Assembly (NCBI GenBank): GCA_001005265.1
Contig: CP011392.1
Span: forward strand, 806,001-870,000
Direction of reading: 5' to 3'
DNA from: Dehalogenimonas sp. WBC-2
GTDB taxonomy: Bacteria > Chloroflexota > Dehalococcoidia > Dehalococcoidales > Dehalococcoidaceae
Length of the DNA: 64,000 nt
Shown: piece after piece, positions 17,535 through 28,614 of the stretch
Numbering within the stretch: position 1 is the stretch's first letter
Layout: every line of letters starts with the position of its first letter
Notes under the pieces: generated by a model
The model's input: only the letters and a program-made list of their open reading frames with translations
What the model was told of the DNA's origin: nothing
Databases searched by the model: none
Program-made: the position numbers and the translations under genes

Positions 17535-19286
17535 TTAAAGCATAGCGCCCAATGCCGTAGCAAGTAAAACTGCGGCCATGACAATGGCCAGATTGATGAC
17601 AATTAATAAAAATATCCATTGACCACTGGTAAGCCTTTTCACGACAGCTTTAAAAAGAGCTTCTTCAGCTTTACTTAGGGCTTCATTTGCAGCCCTGGTT
17701 GCAGCTTCAGCCAATTCCTGTGCTCTTTTGGCCGCTAGCTCGGCATGATCATGCGCGGCTCTTGATATTTCATCGGCGGCAACACGGGCTGATTGACCGA
17801 CGTTTTCAGCACGTTTTATCATGTCCTGTAAAACACCGAGGGAAGCATGAATGGCATCATCACCGGATTTATCAGCCAGGTTCGCAGATGAAATAGAGGC
17901 ATTGGTTACTTTGTAACCTTCACTGGCTGCAGCTAATGCGGCTTTTCCAGCCTCTTGAACCTTCTGAGCTAAATCACCGGACACTTTAGTAGCAGCTTCA
18001 AGCGTATCACGACCAATTCTTTCAGCAGATTCAGTCTTGCGTGCCACTTCTTCAGCCATGTGGTAGGCTTGACTGGCTGCCAATTTGGCATCTCGTCCGG
18101 CTTCATCCGCCTTGCGAACTGTTTCATTACTTGGATTTTCCCGCGCATTTTGAGCTGCTTCGGCGGCAAATTTTGTAGCCGCATCAGCCGCATTAGAGGC
18201 TTTTACAGACTGAACTATGGAAGCCTCCAGTGATTTTTTAGCTTCAAGCGCAAGGTTTTGAAGTCTCAAAGCATTTTTTTCAGCCTCAATTTTTGCTGAC
18301 TGCCCCAGACTTTCTGCTCGATTTATCATATCCTGCAATACGCCAAGCGCTGCATGAATAGCATCATCACCGGATTTATCAGCTGATTTTGCAGAAGCAT
18401 TAGTCGCCTCTATTATTTTATGACTCTCCAACGCAGCAGATAGTGCAGCCTGTCCTGATTCTTCAACCTTGCCAGCGATGGCTTCCGTTACTTTGGTGGA
18501 TACCTCAACGGCATCACTCCCGATTCTTTCCGCTGTTTCAGATTTGCGAGCTACTTCTTCAGCTATATGATATGCATGGCTGGCAGCAAATTTAGCGGCA
18601 CGTCCAGACTGGTCGGCATGACGTGCGGTTTCATTACTTAGATTATCTATGGTGTTTTTTGCAGCCACGTTGGCTATACCCGCAGCTGTATCAGCATCCT
18701 TAGCTGCCTTTATAGCCCGTCCCATGGAGTCATCAAGAGAGTCTTTAGCTGCTAATGCCAATTCCTGGAGTCTTAAAGCATTCTCTTCAGTTGCCCGTGC
18801 CAGTTCTATTGCGGCTTCTCTAGAAGCAAGTGCAACTTCCTCTGCTTTAGCAGAAGCCTCTTCGGCTGCATATCGAGCAGCACGAGCCACTTCTTCTGCA
18901 CGCCGAGCAGCTTCTTCAGCTCTGGCAGATGCATCATCTGCAACTTTGCTGGCAGATTCAGCTTTATGAGAAGCTTCGGTTGCCGCTTTATCTGCAATTG
19001 CTGCCTTTTTTGAGGCTTCTTCAGCTGCCGCTTTGGCGTCAAAAGCCGCTTGTGCCGCAGCACGTGTGGCAGTTTCTGCTGCGTGTTCTCCAGCTTTACG
19101 AGCATCCTCTGCTCTCTGTTCAGCTATTAGGGATGACTTGGTGGCAGCATCGGCAGACGACCCGGCACTTTTGGCTGCAATTTCAGCCTTCTTTGCCGCC
19201 TCAGCCGCCGCTCTAATATTGGAGTCCATTTCATCCAATATTTGCGGAAGAGGTTTAGTTAAGATCTCAGGTTCAAATTTTTCCAT
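17535..19286 (-). CDS. Alanine-rich coiled-coil protein with C-terminal membrane anchor
   Basis: 583 residues, very rich in Ala, Glu, Lys and Ser with heptad-like spacing, predicted to be one long helix. Two repeats of about 169 residues stand in tandem (about 169-337 and 338-507), each containing ALRLQ, SNET, AEEVARK and DKSGDDAIHA at the same places. A hydrophobic helix at about 556-578 ends the protein, so it is probably tail-anchored with the rod in the cytoplasm. There is no signal peptide. I chose the ATG at 19284-19286, preceded by GGAGGAGAG; the upstream GTG in frame lies inside that ribosome-binding site. Function unknown; a structural or envelope-associated scaffold is a guess. It has its own promoter and leader. 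Confidence 0.85.
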   Translation of the reverse strand: MEKFEPEILTKPLPQILDEMDSNIRAAAEAAKKAEIAAKSAGSSADAATKSSLIAEQRAEDARKAGEHAAETATRAAAQAAFDAKAAAEEASKKAAIADKAATEASHKAESASKVADDASARAEEAARRAEEVARAARYAAEEASAKAEEVALASREAAIELARATEENALRLQELALAAKDSLDDSMGRAIKAAKDADTAAGIANVAAKNTIDNLSNETARHADQSGRAAKFAASHAYHIAEEVARKSETAERIGSDAVEVSTKVTEAIAGKVEESGQAALSAALESHKIIEATNASAKSADKSGDDAIHAALGVLQDMINRAESLGQSAKIEAEKNALRLQNLALEAKKSLEASIVQSVKASNAADAATKFAAEAAQNARENPSNETVRKADEAGRDAKLAASQAYHMAEEVARKTESAERIGRDTLEAATKVSGDLAQKVQEAGKAALAAASEGYKVTNASISSANLADKSGDDAIHASLGVLQDMIKRAENVGQSARVAADEISRAAHDHAELAAKRAQELAEAATRAANEALSKAEEALFKAVVKRLTSGQWIFLLIVINLAIVMAAVLLATALGAML

Positions 19287-19315
19287 GACTCTCTCCTCCA
19301 CAGTATCTTAAATAC

Positions 19316-19563: not shown

Positions 19564-20292
19564 TTATGGTGTCTCTTTTATTTGACCACGGACACCTATG
19601 GTCACTTCGTTAACCGGAACAAATATACCAGCCGTTGATGCCGCTTCTCTTACCATGTGCGTTAGTCCACCGCAACACGGCACTTCCATGCGCAACACTG
19701 TTACGCTTTTTGGTTTTGCTTGCCTGAAAATTTGGGTAAGCTTGGCAAGATGAGCATCGAAGTCATCAAGCTTAGGACAGGCGATAAGCAAAGTTTTACC
19801 CTTAAGAAAGTCTCGGTGAAAATTTGGATAAGTAAAGGGAACGCAGTCGGCTGCAAGTAAGATGTCGGAATCTTTTAAAAAAGGGGCGTGTGGCGGCACC
19901 AGGGTTAGTTGAACCGGCCAGTGCTCAAGTGCTGACTCCTGAGTCTTCAGATTGGGTTCATATTCAACGCGTTTTTCCTCAGAATTCATTAGACTGTTGA
20001 AGGACATCAATTGGCTTGATGGGCAGGTGTGAACAGGTTGTACCGATTGAGTTCCTGCCAAATGTTTCATAGCCGATATCTCATCAAACTCCGGCGCTTC
20101 CCGTTCTTCTATTGTTATGGCATTCATTGGGCATTCACCCAGACATGCCCCCAGTCCATCACAATAGGTCTCACTTATTAGCCTAGCTTTGCCATCTATA
20201 ATTTTGATAGCGCCTTCCGCACACGAAGGCACACAGTCACCGCAACCATTGCACTTCTCTTGGTTAATGCACACTATCTTACGTATCGGCAT
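19564..20292 (-). CDS. Two-cluster ferredoxin-type protein with C-terminal cysteine domain
   Basis: 242 residues. The N-terminal 60 residues hold two [4Fe-4S] motifs, CNGCGDCVPSC at about 14-24 and CDGLGACLGECP at about 44-55. The rest is a domain with further conserved cysteines (TCPSS, AADC, ACPK and a CCGG motif near residue 213) found in a family of stand-alone electron-transfer proteins of anaerobes. The electron partner is unknown. Its start overlaps the zinc-ribbon gene by 14 nt, and both sit behind the FNR-type promoter at 20564-20607. Probably cytoplasmic, as no signal is seen. Confidence 0.82.
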   Translation of the reverse strand: MPIRKIVCINQEKCNGCGDCVPSCAEGAIKIIDGKARLISETYCDGLGACLGECPMNAITIEEREAPEFDEISAMKHLAGTQSVQPVHTCPSSQLMSFNSLMNSEEKRVEYEPNLKTQESALEHWPVQLTLVPPHAPFLKDSDILLAADCVPFTYPNFHRDFLKGKTLLIACPKLDDFDAHLAKLTQIFRQAKPKSVTVLRMEVPCCGGLTHMVREAASTAGIFVPVNEVTIGVRGQIKETP

Positions 20293-20536
20293 ATTTAGAC
20301 TCCATCTCCGGTTCCATCTTCAGTGTTTGCCAGCGTTCCTCACCCATGCATTGTCGTACTGAAGCACACCACTCTATACAGGATGGCATTGTTTCCCGAT
20401 AAACCAGTTCACCGCATTTATGACAGCGCGCCCGAGTTTCATCAGAAAATATCTCTACCCCGGCTTTGCACTTCGGACAACGATGAAGCTCAAGCCTGAG
20501 TTTGCGAAAGTCTTGTCCCGGACATTGACCAGTCAT
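20279..20536 (-). CDS. Small zinc-ribbon protein
   Basis: 85 residues with two Cys pairs, CPKC and CHKC at about 20-41, forming a zinc-ribbon, and two more Cys in the C-terminal half (SCIEWC). GAGGTGAT stands just before the ATG. It is first in a two-gene unit with the ferredoxin-type protein and overlaps it by 14 nt, so the two products probably act together. No function can be assigned from sequence. Confidence 0.78.
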   Translation of the reverse strand: MTGQCPGQDFRKLRLELHRCPKCKAGVEIFSDETRARCHKCGELVYRETMPSCIEWCASVRQCMGEERWQTLKMEPEMESKYADT

Positions 20537-20563: not shown

Positions 20564-20607
20564 ATTATATGGCGTAAAAACCAAAAATTGTATGATATAT
20601 ATCAATA
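20564..20607 (-). promoter_or_regulatory. FNR/CRP-type activator site and -10 element
   Basis: A perfect palindrome TGAT-ATAT-ATCA lies at 20593-20604 and matches the FNR half-site TTGAT on one side. On the minus strand a TATAAT follows at 20564-20569, predicting a start near 20557. The palindrome centre (20598.5) is then at about -41.5, the classical position for FNR/CRP class II activation. The Crp/Fnr gene lies directly upstream. Confidence 0.72.
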
Positions 20608-20619
20608 ATAGGGGGCAAA

Positions 20620-21297
20620 CTAGAGCGGTCCCTCAGCCAGCAGCCGAAGTTTGGTTGCATCCTCAATTATGACCATACCACGGCGTGACGTAATGATCTT
20701 GCCTTCTTTAAGCCTGCTGAGAAAACGGACCGTAGTTTCCAGCGTGGTGCCGGACATATCGGCCAGGTCCTGTCGGGTAAACGGCAGTTCCCGGCCTAAT
20801 TTGGACGCCAGCCGTTGCAACGTCCGCGCCAGCCGCTGCTCTACCCTTTCTCCTGAAAGGTCATGCAAACGGCTCTGGGCTTCTCTCAGACGAGCACTTA
20901 ACATACCAATCATAGTCATGGCCACACCCGGGTGATGCTGGATAAAACTATGGAAAACCTGCAGACTGACAACCATGACTTCAACATCTTCCACCGCCAG
21001 ACTGGAAGCCGGATAGGGTTTGTTTTCAAATACCGCAACTTCACCGAAGACTTCACCCGGGCCAAAGAAGGCAACTACTGTCTCCCGTCCCTGTGAACCA
21101 TGTTTGACCACTTTTACCCTTCCCTGAGTTAAAAGGTAAAAATATTTCGGCGGACCATTTTCCCAGAAAATATACTCACCCGCGGCAAACTGTTTGATCT
21201 CACCTGTATTGACCAATTCAGTAAGGTCTGCTACTGACAAAGTTGTAAATAGGTAGCTTTTCTTAAGGGCACGGATTAATGCTGCGCTATCTTTCAA
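20620..21297 (-). CDS. Crp/Fnr family transcriptional regulator
   Basis: 225 residues: a cyclic-nucleotide-type beta-barrel sensor at about 10-125, a dimer helix, and a winged helix at about 150-220 with the recognition region LADMSGTTLETTVRFLSRLKEGK. No FNR-type N-terminal cysteine cluster is visible, so the signal is not an Fe-S cluster of that kind. The start is TTG at 21295-21297, overlapping the TGA of the preceding Fe-S gene (TTGA). Last gene of the HEAT/Fe-S operon; it probably acts at the palindrome 13 nt or more beyond its own stop. Confidence 0.92.
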   Translation of the reverse strand: MKDSAALIRALKKSYLFTTLSVADLTELVNTGEIKQFAAGEYIFWENGPPKYFYLLTQGRVKVVKHGSQGRETVVAFFGPGEVFGEVAVFENKPYPASSLAVEDVEVMVVSLQVFHSFIQHHPGVAMTMIGMLSARLREAQSRLHDLSGERVEQRLARTLQRLASKLGRELPFTRQDLADMSGTTLETTVRFLSRLKEGKIITSRRGMVIIEDATKLRLLAEGPL

Positions 21298-22214
21298 TTC
21301 TTCCCCTGTTCAGTGCCTAAGAGTAGCTGCAAGTTACGTGGCAAAATGTCGTAATAGGCGGCCAGATGAAAATTACGTAGTTTCCTCTGGGTGACCACAG
21401 TAAGGTTTTCAAATGTAATTCCTGACAGAATAGCCTCGGTCTCAGTTTCAGAAAATTCGGCGGCTGTCTCAGTGTTATTGAAGAGAGTCCGGTTCATTGG
21501 ACAAACCTGCTGACAAATACGGCAACCTATAAGAGAATTATGCCATTTCTGATGCACCCATTCGGGGAAATCGGAGGGTTCTTTGCTTAACAATGACAGG
21601 CAGTGGCTAACATCATATCCATCTGGCCGGAGACAACCTGTAGGACAAGCCTCAAGGCAATTACGGCAATCAACACAACTCTGGCTTATCCGGTGTTCTC
21701 CCCACACCATCGTGCCGGACGGCATATCGGAAAAAAAAGCTGAAAGACGAAAGAAACTGCCCATACCGTCTATATAACCCATATTATTGTAACCGTTCTC
21801 CAACAGACCGGTGTGGCTTGCCAATAGTTTTGTTGGAATATTTGCTTCAGCAAGCCGATAACCTTGAGCGGAAATAATATTGAGGATAGAAGCAATAATA
21901 CCATTCACAGCATCATCGTGATCCGCGGACAACGGTGGTACTTCAAAAGCATAATGTCGGCCAAGGTGAGTAAACCCAAGTTTGATTGGAGTCACCGGCA
22001 CCGCCACGACAAAAACCGACCTCGCATCTAAAAGATTCTGTGGCGGTTTAAAGTTAAAATTATGCTGTGAAAGGTGAGGCGAACTCTGCCATACTTTTCT
22101 GCTGGTAATTATTTTATATTCGGCTTCAAGTGCGGCTAATCGCTCAACAGGAACGACACAAGCACCATAACCCAGTCTTGCCAACTCAGTGATGACAGTA
22201 TCGGCGAGCGACAT
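21294..22214 (-). CDS. QueG-like double [4Fe-4S] cluster protein, second copy
   Basis: 306 residues from the ATG at 22212-22214 (TGATG overlap with the preceding gene; a GTG one codon earlier is possible). The C-terminal half follows epoxyqueuosine reductase: a GMGSF segment, then cluster cysteines at about 180, 183, 186, 190 (with C194), C205 and the GCRICQQVCPMN motif (231, 234, 238). QueG reduces epoxyqueuosine in tRNA using cobalamin; in this paralogue the N-terminal part is divergent and short, so substrate and cofactor are open. A paralogue of the gene at 22214-23143 with cysteines at matching positions. No Tat signal, which argues against a reductive dehalogenase. Confidence 0.85.
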   Translation of the reverse strand: MSLADTVITELARLGYGACVVPVERLAALEAEYKIITSRKVWQSSPHLSQHNFNFKPPQNLLDARSVFVVAVPVTPIKLGFTHLGRHYAFEVPPLSADHDDAVNGIIASILNIISAQGYRLAEANIPTKLLASHTGLLENGYNNMGYIDGMGSFFRLSAFFSDMPSGTMVWGEHRISQSCVDCRNCLEACPTGCLRPDGYDVSHCLSLLSKEPSDFPEWVHQKWHNSLIGCRICQQVCPMNRTLFNNTETAAEFSETETEAILSGITFENLTVVTQRKLRNFHLAAYYDILPRNLQLLLGTEQGKN

Positions 22215-23143
22215 CACGTCTGCCCTTCCAAGATGGCTCTCAAATTACGCGGAATAACATTATAATAGGTGTCCAGATTATACTTGGTGAGTTTTTCCTT
22301 GAGTTCAGGGCTTAAATCATCAAAGGGAGTTGCCTCAATTATTGCCATAGTCTCTTGTTCGTTAAACACCTCACTCACCTTTATATCACGAAGCAGTGGT
22401 CGGTCCACCGGACAACTTGACTGGCAACGCATACAACCAATAATAGCATTGTGCAAATGGAGACCTAGCCATTCAGGAAAAGTCCCAGGTTCCTCATTGT
22501 ATAAAGTGATGCATTTTTCCGAACGGGCAATGAATCGTCCACCTTCTGACATAGGAACGAGACATCCCGTAGGACAATTCCCCCGGCAGAAACCACAATC
22601 AGCGCACGCATCCATTAGTTGAGAGGGGATCCATAAATCTTCCGGCGCCGTTAGTGTTGAGTAAAAGGCCACTAAACGGTGGAAACTACCCATACCATCA
22701 ACATAGGTAAGATTGTTTTGACCATATACAGCGAGGCCACATCTTACCGCTGCCAGTTTGTAAGGGATACGGGCATCAATTATACGATGCCCATCTGCCC
22801 CTAGACTTCTTCCAAGTGCTTTACGTATTCGGGTTAGGTTATTACTAAACGTATAATATGGCGGGATACCTGCAAAATATATTTTACCTCGATATGAGAA
22901 GCTGAGTTGGATAAAGGGCAAAGGCGCGGCAATAATGATGATTGAACGTGCTTCGGGCATATTTTTAGGTGGGTCACCATCAAGGCGCTTCAAATTGCGG
23001 TCAAAAAATGATTCGTCAAATTGTCCTTCGATAAATCTGTTCCAAAGTTCTTCTTTGAGTTCAGTAACACGCTTTACATCAAGTATCCCGTAACGGCATC
23101 CTATAGTTGAAAGCTCATTGGCAAGCTTCTCATAAACAGTCAT
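22214..23143 (-). CDS. QueG-like double [4Fe-4S] cluster protein, first copy
   Basis: 309 residues from the ATG at 23141-23143, chosen because it makes an ATGA overlap with the upstream gene; a longer start at 23227 would overlap that gene by 88 nt. Cysteines at about 180, 183, 186, 190 and 194, then 211, 237, 240 and 244, spell the two ferredoxin-like motifs of the QueG family (CPTGC, IIGCMRCQSSCPVD). The GMGSFHRL segment matches the GS motif before the clusters in QueG. Sequence upstream of residue 150 resembles the neighbour more than a standard QueG. Probably an intracellular redox protein; the substrate is unknown. Confidence 0.85.
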   Translation of the reverse strand: MTVYEKLANELSTIGCRYGILDVKRVTELKEELWNRFIEGQFDESFFDRNLKRLDGDPPKNMPEARSIIIIAAPLPFIQLSFSYRGKIYFAGIPPYYTFSNNLTRIRKALGRSLGADGHRIIDARIPYKLAAVRCGLAVYGQNNLTYVDGMGSFHRLVAFYSTLTAPEDLWIPSQLMDACADCGFCRGNCPTGCLVPMSEGGRFIARSEKCITLYNEEPGTFPEWLGLHLHNAIIGCMRCQSSCPVDRPLLRDIKVSEVFNEQETMAIIEATPFDDLSPELKEKLTKYNLDTYYNVIPRNLRAILEGQT

Positions 23144-23895
23144 CCCGACTCCAGGCACCATCGTTCCACCCAATCTGCATCCATTTTTATCAATCTGTTC
23201 TTCTTGAGGTTTTCTCTCATCACCCACATGACATCGTTATCTTTGCTAGCGAACCAATGCTCCATCGCGATTTTACCTTGCTGCGGTAATGCGGCGACCG
23301 CAACGCTCCAGCAATATCCCAAGGCCTGACGCAGAGTTTTGAAACTATCCTCTCGCCTGTCTTTAGATGCGATGATGGACTTTGTTATATCTCCCAGTAT
23401 CTCAAGCAGCTCAACTACTTCATACTCGGTCTTCAAGAGTCTTGGTTCGCACAATGCCGCTACCGCCGCACGCTGTAAGTAGCGGTTTCCGGTAGACCAC
23501 TCTTTCATCCTGACCAGCAGTCCTGCCATATCGCGGTCGCCAAATGCCTGGAGCGCCATGGCAACCGCTTCCCTGGTTCGCCACCGGGGATCACTGGCGA
23601 ATACCTTCAAATCTTCCCATGCCGGCAGATTGTCACGGGAAAGGAATCGGCCTTGTCCGTAAACACCGCAAAAAGCAAGGAATTCCTCCGGAGAATTTGC
23701 TGGCGCTACATTAGAAGTATATTTGATAAGGTCATTAAACAATGAAGCATTGCCCTCAAGGAAAACCGCCTGGGCTAACTCAAGGTTGCCTCGGGGACCC
23801 GGGAGTCTGGACTCCGCCATGAGAAAGGGCTGCCAACTATCAAGCTTTCTTAAGGTGTGTCTGTAGGCTTCAATTTTGTCCGTAGTATTTCCCAT
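23140..23895 (-). CDS. HEAT-repeat-like (AlkD-type) helical protein
   Basis: 251 residues from the ATG at 23893-23895 (MGNTTDKIEAYRH). A longer in-frame start would run into tRNA-Leu and is rejected. The middle contains paired helices of HEAT type (DPRWRTREAVAMALQAFGD, then YLQRAAVAALCEP), as in DNA-alkylation-repair and nucleic-acid-binding HEAT proteins. No catalytic motif can be named. It is first in the operon and overlaps the first Fe-S gene by ATGA. Some QueG enzymes carry a C-terminal HEAT-like domain that helps hold tRNA, so this could be a separate substrate-binding partner (inference). Confidence 0.68.
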   Translation of the reverse strand: MGNTTDKIEAYRHTLRKLDSWQPFLMAESRLPGPRGNLELAQAVFLEGNASLFNDLIKYTSNVAPANSPEEFLAFCGVYGQGRFLSRDNLPAWEDLKVFASDPRWRTREAVAMALQAFGDRDMAGLLVRMKEWSTGNRYLQRAAVAALCEPRLLKTEYEVVELLEILGDITKSIIASKDRREDSFKTLRQALGYCWSVAVAALPQQGKIAMEHWFASKDNDVMWVMRENLKKNRLIKMDADWVERWCLESG

Positions 23896-23932: not shown

Positions 23933-24017
23933 TGGTGGGGAAGCGGGGACTTGAACCCCGACGTCTTTCGACACATGATCCTAAGTCATGCCCGTCTGCC
24001 AATTCCGGCACTCCCCC
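23933..24017 (-). tRNA. tRNA-Leu (anticodon UAG), CCA encoded
   Basis: Minus-strand class II tRNA of 85 nt. Acceptor GGGGGAG pairs with CTTCCCC with one G-U pair, discriminator A and CCA at the 3' end. The anticodon stem CATGA/TCATG encloses CTTAGGA with anticodon TAG. A long variable arm (TGTCG...CGTCG) is present. A -10-like TAAAAT lies about 20 nt upstream. Confidence 0.96.
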
Positions 24018-27153: not shown

Positions 27154-28614
27154 TTAAGGAATCTTAGTAAACACAGCGGTTGCTGCTTTATTAGAATTCA
27201 TGTCAATAATCACTGAAAGATTAATCCCCGATGCGTCACCTTCCCAGTGTTCAAACTTGTAACCCTCTTTTGGGGTTGCAGTAACTGTTACTTTACTCCC
27301 TGTATCGTACGATGTCGTTCCGGGTATTGTTACAGTTCCCCCGTCACTGGGGCTGACACTCACTGTCAGAGCAAAGGTTTTAATAAATACTGGTGTGATA
27401 TTTTTATTTGAATTCATATTTAGCGATATCGTCGAATTGGTGCCAGTCACATCTCCACTCCATCGGTCAAAACGGTAGCCCTCTGTCGGAACGGCAGTAA
27501 TATTAATTTGAACCGCTGGGGAATACAGACCATCTATACCTGGTGTTTGGCTAATATTGACTGAGCCACCTATGACATTAACACTTGTTCCTGTAGAGAC
27601 CTGACCTCCAACACTGAGCGAATAATGTGGCTCAAATACGATAGAAATATGTTTATCGCTATTGATAGTGATCTGTGTAGGATTAATTGTATCTTGTCCC
27701 GTGCCAGACCAGTCCTTCCAACCATATCCTTGAGAAGGTATCGCTGAAATAGTCACCTTTGTACCATAGGCATATTTGCCATCATCTCCGGGAGCTGGAT
27801 TGACCAAAACTGTCCCCTGCGGGAAGTCGATACTTGAGTCAATCACCAATTGTGTATTTATGTAAATGAATGATCGAGGTTCAAATACCACGCTAACATT
27901 TTGAACTGTGCCATTCATCACGATAGATGAAGGGTTGAATGTATCGTTAACAGTGCCAGCCCAACTAAACCAGTCATATCCTGAATTTGCCCGTGCGGTC
28001 AAACTAAGCGACTGGCCTTTGGAATATTTACCATCCGCTCCAGGTGCCGGGTTTATTGTAATTGACCCTTCGTCGAATCTAACAAATGATCCAATAACAA
28101 GTTGGTTATTGATAATCAGAGCAACACGTGGTTCGAAAGTCACTCGTATCTGATTTGTCTGCCCAATGGTGATGGAAGATATAATCGAGGTATCTTGCTC
28201 GGTACCGGTCCAGCTTATCCAATCATACCCAGGTCCAGGGATAGCCGTAAGGGTAATTATTTTACCTTTAACGTAATCACCGTTGACTGCTGGGGATGAA
28301 CTAAGCTGAACTGTACCTCCGTTTAAGACAACAGTTGCCGAAGTAACTTTTAGGCCGTTAATGAAAATACCTTCGGTCGGAGTGCGTAAAAAAGCGAAAC
28401 CAAATAAAGCTAGTACGACGCAAGCTAGTATCCCAAGCAACCATACTTTCCGGTGGAGCAGGTAAAGCCGAAATAGAGTGTAAATAGCACTTAGGCTTAC
28501 CAGAGCCGTGATACCCAGTAAAATATCACGCAACTGAAAGAATACATAAGATACAAGACCTAGGATCAATGGGACCCAAAAGAAAGTGTATACTTCTTGT
28601 AAATATTTTTTCAA
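27154..28614 (-). CDS. Membrane-anchored surface protein with five InlB-type repeats
   Basis: 486 residues. Three hydrophobic helices at the N-terminus (about 10-90) are followed by five repeats of about 75-85 residues, each with a GxVxxxP...G.Y..G..V..TA.P..GY.F..W.G pattern and an end such as VVFEPR or VF. These are divergent InlB B-repeats, beta-rich modules common in secreted proteins. The repeats should face outside. The stop codon lies 11 nt from tRNA-Pro, and the gene fills the space between the tRNA and the copy of its 3' end, so it looks like cargo. The surface protein at 35616-37103 carries related repeats. Function unknown; adhesion or surface-layer attachment is a guess. Confidence 0.82.
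   Translation of the reverse strand: MKKYLQEVYTFFWVPLILGLVSYVFFQLRDILLGITALVSLSAIYTLFRLYLLHRKVWLLGILACVVLALFGFAFLRTPTEGIFINGLKVTSATVVLNGGTVQLSSSPAVNGDYVKGKIITLTAIPGPGYDWISWTGTEQDTSIISSITIGQTNQIRVTFEPRVALIINNQLVIGSFVRFDEGSITINPAPGADGKYSKGQSLSLTARANSGYDWFSWAGTVNDTFNPSSIVMNGTVQNVSVVFEPRSFIYINTQLVIDSSIDFPQGTVLVNPAPGDDGKYAYGTKVTISAIPSQGYGWKDWSGTGQDTINPTQITINSDKHISIVFEPHYSLSVGGQVSTGTSVNVIGGSVNISQTPGIDGLYSPAVQINITAVPTEGYRFDRWSGDVTGTNSTISLNMNSNKNITPVFIKTFALTVSVSPSDGGTVTIPGTTSYDTGSKVTVTATPKEGYKFEHWEGDASGINLSVIIDMNSNKAATAVFTKIP

Follow-up and report, generated by a model that had tools for sequence, protein, structure and literature searches.

A QueG-like iron–sulfur protein family behind tRNA-Leu in Dehalogenimonas sp. 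WBC-2: candidate B12-dependent reductases outside the QueG and dehalogenase clades

The window analyzed here is a 64,000-nucleotide stretch of the Dehalogenimonas sp. WBC-2 genome (contig CP011392.1, positions 806,001 to 870,000; genome of 1.73 Mb in a single contig). On its minus strand, a HEAT-like protein, two QueG-like iron–sulfur proteins (FS1 and FS2) and a Crp/Fnr-superfamily regulator are encoded in this order, followed by the genes for a zinc-ribbon protein and a ferredoxin (20536–19564). Numbered from the first letter of the window, the features of the locus are:

23933..24017, minus strand: tRNA-Leu(UAG) gene, directly upstream of the HEAT gene (ARAGORN)
23140..23895, minus strand: HEAT-like repeat protein of 251 amino acids with a predicted AlkD2/AlkD-type fold (structure model; motif LPGPRxNLEL)
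22214..23143, minus strand: FS1, QueG-like protein of 309 amino acids with two predicted 4Fe-4S clusters (PF13484 slightly above cut-off; TIGR00276 below cut-off; FS clade)
21294..22214, minus strand: FS2, QueG-like protein of 306 amino acids with two predicted 4Fe-4S clusters (PF13484 at 45.8 bits; structure model; FS clade)
20620..21297, minus strand: Crp/Fnr-superfamily regulator of 225 amino acids with a TTG start (PF00027 and PF13545; FNR-like recognition helix)
20592..20605, minus strand: FNR-like box TTGATATATATCAT, conserved in the regulator/zinc-ribbon gap of relatives
20279..20536, minus strand: small zinc-ribbon protein of 85 amino acids behind the regulator (open reading frame; conserved; weak zinc-ribbon matches)
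19564..20292, minus strand: two-cluster ferredoxin of 242 amino acids with a C-terminal PCC-motif region (profile matches)

An earlier sequence-only reading of this DNA had described the first four protein genes as overlapping at every junction, and all four were indeed found in that order, joined by ATGA (HEAT/FS1, 4 nt), TGATG (FS1/FS2) and TTGA (FS2/Crp). The start of the HEAT gene is placed at 23895; an in-frame ATG further upstream would enter the tRNA-Leu gene, which ends 37 nt before the operon. An 83-bp gap bearing the conserved regulator box sets the zinc-ribbon/ferredoxin pair apart from the Crp gene. By its architecture the four-gene set is an ordinary operon, and it is the FS family that makes the locus interesting.

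FS1 and FS2 share 33% identity across their whole length, and eight cysteines (C180, C183, C186, C190, C205, C231, C234 and C238 in FS2 numbering) stand at matching positions in both, as the earlier reading had seen. These residues are invariant in all 47 FS family members, in each of which the PF13484 double-cluster domain is found as well. Both proteins are thus predicted, from their cysteine pattern, to carry two [4Fe-4S] clusters in a bacterial-ferredoxin module, as is characteristic of class III (QueG/reductive-dehalogenase/CblC-like) enzymes. In the libraries searched, generic ferredoxin models alone are matched above their cut-offs; the best specific match is QueG, with TIGR00276 scores of 50–66 bits (66 for FS2 and 51 for FS1) against a cut-off of 200. 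A profile built from the FS proteins finds QueG in the PDB at E 1e-19, with weaker matches to dehalogenases, and its profile–profile alignment to QueG is almost full length at a probability of 99.8.

The AlphaFold2 model of FS2 (predicted local distance difference test, pLDDT, 94.2) was compared with known structures by VIA-align, giving a Z of 21.3 over 285 residues for QueG (5d08), 10.9 and 10.2 for the reductive dehalogenases PceA (4uqu) and NpRdhA (4ras), and 8.4 for MMACHC/CblC (3som). In this model, a nitroreductase-like N-terminal domain of the cobalamin type, assigned by fold, superposes on QueG, the dehalogenases and CblC. As in QueG (TIGR00276; 5d08, 5d6s), it is followed by the two-cluster ferredoxin domain with the eight cysteines at corresponding places, and assignment to the QueG superfamily, proposed from the letters, is borne out by the structural match, the profile match and PF13484. 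However, FS2, which is 306 residues long, aligns to residues 4–313 of the 384-residue 5d08 chain, with about 68 residues behind the last cysteine; for most of the helical-repeat domain at the C-terminus of QueG it has no counterpart. With the reductive dehalogenases (TIGR02486) the FS proteins share the superfamily, the two-cluster ferredoxin module and a similar GL-x-E/Y-x-GRN stretch, but they are only about 305 residues long as compared to 450–540. CblC shares the nitroreductase-like cobalamin fold but has no ferredoxin domain (PMC4646009).

A tree was calculated from 47 FS, 19 QueG and 10 dehalogenase rows, in which one QueG row (L130), derived from a mis-called frame, was disregarded, leaving 18. 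FS sequences are monophyletic (support 100/99) and fall outside both the QueG clade (100/100 without the mis-framed row) and the dehalogenases (96/39). In the column of the QueG catalytic aspartate (VD[ST]AP, Asp130/134; roles of QueG active-site residues according to PMC4646009), all 18 correctly called QueG rows have D, whereas FS proteins mostly have A, V, K, I, F or Y. Instead, P93, K129, N143, W219, H225 and Q235 are FS-specific invariant residues, and P94 is kept in 45 of the 47 members. By score, clade and the missing aspartate the FS proteins are hence distinct from true QueG. The tyrosine of a PPTY motif is present in 42 of the 47 FS rows and replaced by serine in five rows of the FS2 clade (PPLS), where alignment to QueG Tyr101 is uncertain. 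FS1 and FS2 themselves belong to two separate, well-supported groups, both of which are represented in several species of the genus; they are therefore old paralogues and not products of a recent duplication, and their description as twins has to be qualified accordingly.

Within the genus, the tail formed by FS2, the Crp regulator, the zinc ribbon and the ferredoxin is constant in all eight genomes examined, while HEAT and FS1 vary. The 5' part consists of HEAT, FS1 and FS2 in the window genome, of HEAT and FS2 in two genomes, of FS1 and FS2 in another two and of FS2 alone in three. As the order is kept in these eight genomes, the arrangement is not due to chance. A further locus (L159) holds the Crp–zinc ribbon–ferredoxin module without FS genes, and in a second genus of the same family a single FS gene is present in one of three genomes examined. 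In six of the eight genomes (the window, L034, L035, L029, L030 and L023), the first FS or HEAT gene is immediately preceded by tRNA-Leu(UAG); in a seventh, the distance is 545 nt. Since the 37-nt gap in the window has no terminator-like site, transcription of the operon from the tRNA promoter is likely. The gene after tRNA-Leu(UAG) differs by species, as might be expected with a variable insertion point or a tRNA–mRNA co-transcript.

The regulator combines a cyclic nucleotide monophosphate-type domain with a Crp helix (PF00027, PF13545). It contains no cysteine anywhere and is, consequently, not an Fnr [4Fe-4S] oxygen sensor. A proline, read from the sequence, occupies what we take to be the position of the cAMP-binding Arg83 of E. 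coli CRP. In the gap between the regulator and zinc-ribbon genes, the pattern TTGAT-N4-ATCAT is found at all eight genus loci, and a version with one change at the locus lacking FS genes. In the window, the box, which lies about 41 nt upstream of the presumed start of the zinc-ribbon/ferredoxin transcript, is followed by TATAAT 22 nt on, an arrangement like that of class II activation sites. The whole genome contains three exact matches to the pattern, just one of them, that in the regulator/zinc-ribbon gap, being intergenic; upstream of the FS genes, no FNR-like box was seen. Hence, of the proposed Crp/Fnr regulator in a coupled operon, the superfamily and the overlap hold, but Fnr-type control is not supported, as the cysteines are missing and the only conserved FNR-like box precedes the zinc-ribbon/ferredoxin genes. 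Lack of the Fnr cysteine motif, proximity to a ferredoxin-like gene and an FNR-like box are shared with the HcpR-type Crp/Fnr regulators of anaerobes (PMC1274295). An hcp gene was not present beside the ferredoxin/regulator module in the loci read; the whole genome was not searched for it.

The HEAT-like call made from the sequence alone holds up in fold prediction. The AlphaFold2 model (pLDDT 95.9) indicates a genuine HEAT-like solenoid that superposes on AlkD2 and AlkD, the best structural match being AlkD2 of Streptococcus mutans (4x8q, Z 17.5), ahead of AlkC (14.5), unrelated HEAT proteins (at most 13.4, about 4 Z units below AlkD2) and AlkD (11.5). Identity to AlkD2 is only 15%, however, and the HEAT protein has its own N-terminal LPGPRxNLEL motif. 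Its match to Pfam HEAT_2 is below cut-off; PF08713 (DNA alkylation repair) is weakly matched by seven of 24 HEAT-family members (best E 0.002), the window protein not being among them. Of 400 sampled Chloroflexota, 53 carry a member of the family; only three of these are from this genus, and the other members of the order and class that were listed lack it. Across large-genome Chloroflexota (L036–L062), its members show invariant LPGPRxNxE and WRxRE motifs and a fold nearest AlkD2. No FS gene was found beside the HEAT gene at 27 such Chloroflexota loci outside the genus, nor a HEAT gene beside FS in the FS loci examined there; within the genus, HEAT is absent from five of the eight genomes, all of which keep FS2. 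An obligate partnership of HEAT with FS is rejected by this distribution, and the protein looks like a passenger or acquired neighbour at the tRNA locus.

Outside the genus, a scan of a genome collection relying on short motifs yielded 45 FS loci in Chloroflexota, Aminicenantes, Zixibacteria, Lokiarchaeota and other archaea, Desulfobacterales, Bacillota, Spirochaetes, Planctomycetes and others; as short motifs are needed for the scan, the true spread is probably wider. Most FS copies appear to be single genes. The ferredoxin is widespread in anaerobes and present in 12 of 14 other FS-carrying genomes. With names assigned by eye, the recurring neighbours of a minority are CGNR/ABATE regulators (seven loci) and EamA-type permeases (four loci), while MGMT-like, Ada, MsrB and flavodoxin-type genes are found at single loci. 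The CGNR/ABATE-type regulator gene is divergent and stands directly before FS in unrelated anaerobes (L078, L082, L086, L092, L106 and L107). At L073 and L079, FS is accompanied by an MGMT-like gene and an Ada-like gene, which may connect it, though tenuously, to alkylation damage.

Elsewhere in the window, 17535–19301 encodes an alanine-rich protein of 588 amino acids that is predicted to form a coiled coil, contains a long internal duplication and ends in a hydrophobic tail. The 486-amino-acid product of 27154–28614 has a membrane segment at its N-terminus and a unit of about 80 residues that is repeated several times in tandem.

Considering these findings, we favour, with a probability of roughly 0.55, the view that the FS proteins are an unnamed family of soluble class III reductases, probably B12-dependent, that act on a substrate other than epoxyqueuosine-tRNA or a respired organohalide. 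Without the catalytic aspartate and most of the tRNA-binding tail of QueG, they probably reduce some other compound. In the most likely mechanism, a ferredoxin would donate electrons to the two [4Fe-4S] clusters, from which they would reach a base-off cobamide bound by the nitroreductase-like domain; Co(I) formed in this way would reduce a small electrophilic substrate. In this genus, the tRNA promoter would probably drive transcription of the locus behind tRNA-Leu, and the Crp-type activator, encoded last in the FS unit, would switch on the accessory zinc-ribbon/ferredoxin pair. Of the earlier proposal of a redox enzyme acting on a nucleic-acid or small-molecule substrate, the redox enzyme is supported, but nothing found points firmly to a nucleic acid. 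Several points speak against our assignment. Cobalamin binding is inferred from the modelled fold; no cobalamin riboswitch was detected near FS genes in 42 loci, which is not decisive; the varied neighbours at the 45 loci outside the genus include no common partner gene and name no substrate; and the serine in FS2 (PPLS for PPTY) means that the chemistry of FS1 and FS2 may differ or that one of them has lost activity. In the QueG structure paper (PMC4646009) it is stated that further families combining B12 and [4Fe-4S] clusters may well exist and that there is no sequence motif diagnostic of cobalamin by which to find them. With somewhat less than even odds, the FS proteins could even constitute a further B12-dependent class III branch beside QueG, dehalogenases and CblC. 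Spread over anaerobic bacteria and archaea, Asgard among them, this branch would have an active site of its own (with PP and PxK as invariant elements) and would act on something other than tRNA or an organohalide.

Rather unlikely, in our view, is that the proteins have kept the class III fold and its clusters without a cobamide and serve, together with the downstream ferredoxin, in electron transfer or redox sensing. No other feature of the family is as well conserved as the eight cysteines, in this genus a ferredoxin gene always lies close by, and the missing riboswitch would fit; but the ferredoxin gene is not adjacent to FS in other phyla, and the entire cobalamin-type domain is retained at high confidence with invariant residues of its own, for which a simple electron carrier would have no use. 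A cytoplasmic reductive dehalogenase of the catabolic type, employed in detoxification, appears improbable. It would agree with the common superfamily, with the roughly 20 reductive-dehalogenase-like frames in the host genome that match QueG or Fer4_16 models, and with TIGR02486 matches below cut-off in 45 of the 47 members. These matches amount, however, to 22 bits for FS2 and 16 bits for FS1 against a cut-off of 160, the Pfam dehalogenase domain (PF13486) is matched by none of the 47 members, structural Z is only about 11, and the FS proteins fall outside the dehalogenase clade. Several of the host frames carry twin-arginine translocation signals (RRDFMK), and no twin-arginine motif indicative of a respiratory-type signal is present at the N-termini of FS1 (MTVYEK) or FS2 (MSLADT).

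Very unlikely is a redox enzyme on nucleic acid, one of the two kinds of substrate named in the sequence-only reading, with the HEAT protein replacing the C-terminal repeat domain of QueG. The 4-nt overlap of the HEAT and FS1 genes, a fold nearest DNA-binding AlkD-type proteins, the shortened FS C-terminus and the two distant FS loci beside MGMT-like or Ada genes are in its favour. On the other hand, S. mutans AlkD2 binds DNA weakly and shows no alkylpurine excision or glycosylase activity (PMC4433238), and the HEAT protein belongs to a separate AlkD2-like family, present in only three of eight genus genomes and in about 50 other Chloroflexota with no FS gene alongside at any of the 27 loci, whereas FS does without it everywhere else seen; the idea of a split-off, tRNA-holding part of QueG is therefore not supported. 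Epoxyqueuosine reductases of an unusual type, finally, are highly improbable, although QueG structures are the closest and a search for a canonical queG elsewhere in the host genome found no frame reaching the TIGR00276 cut-off. The last queuosine step is catalyzed by QueG or QueH, depending on the organism (PMC10723273), and the WBC-2 genome encodes QueH (E 3.5e-49) as well as Tgt; consequently, FS is not needed for queuosine. Moreover, true QueG above cut-off coexists with FS in nine of 35 other FS-carrying genomes, which rules FS out as a QueG substitute, just as score, separate clade, unconserved aspartate column and QueH rule it out as true QueG. In the collection of papers searched, none was found that links Dehalogenimonas with epoxyqueuosine reductase.

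With QueG as their best specific library match, the FS proteins are at risk of being named after it. They represent a concrete, alignable candidate, with a fold predicted at high confidence, invariant ligands and distinct invariant residues, that ranges from Dehalococcoidia to Lokiarchaeota. Should they bind a cobamide, a new reductive chemistry would be added to anaerobic metabolism; should they not, they would provide an example of this fold being used without B12.

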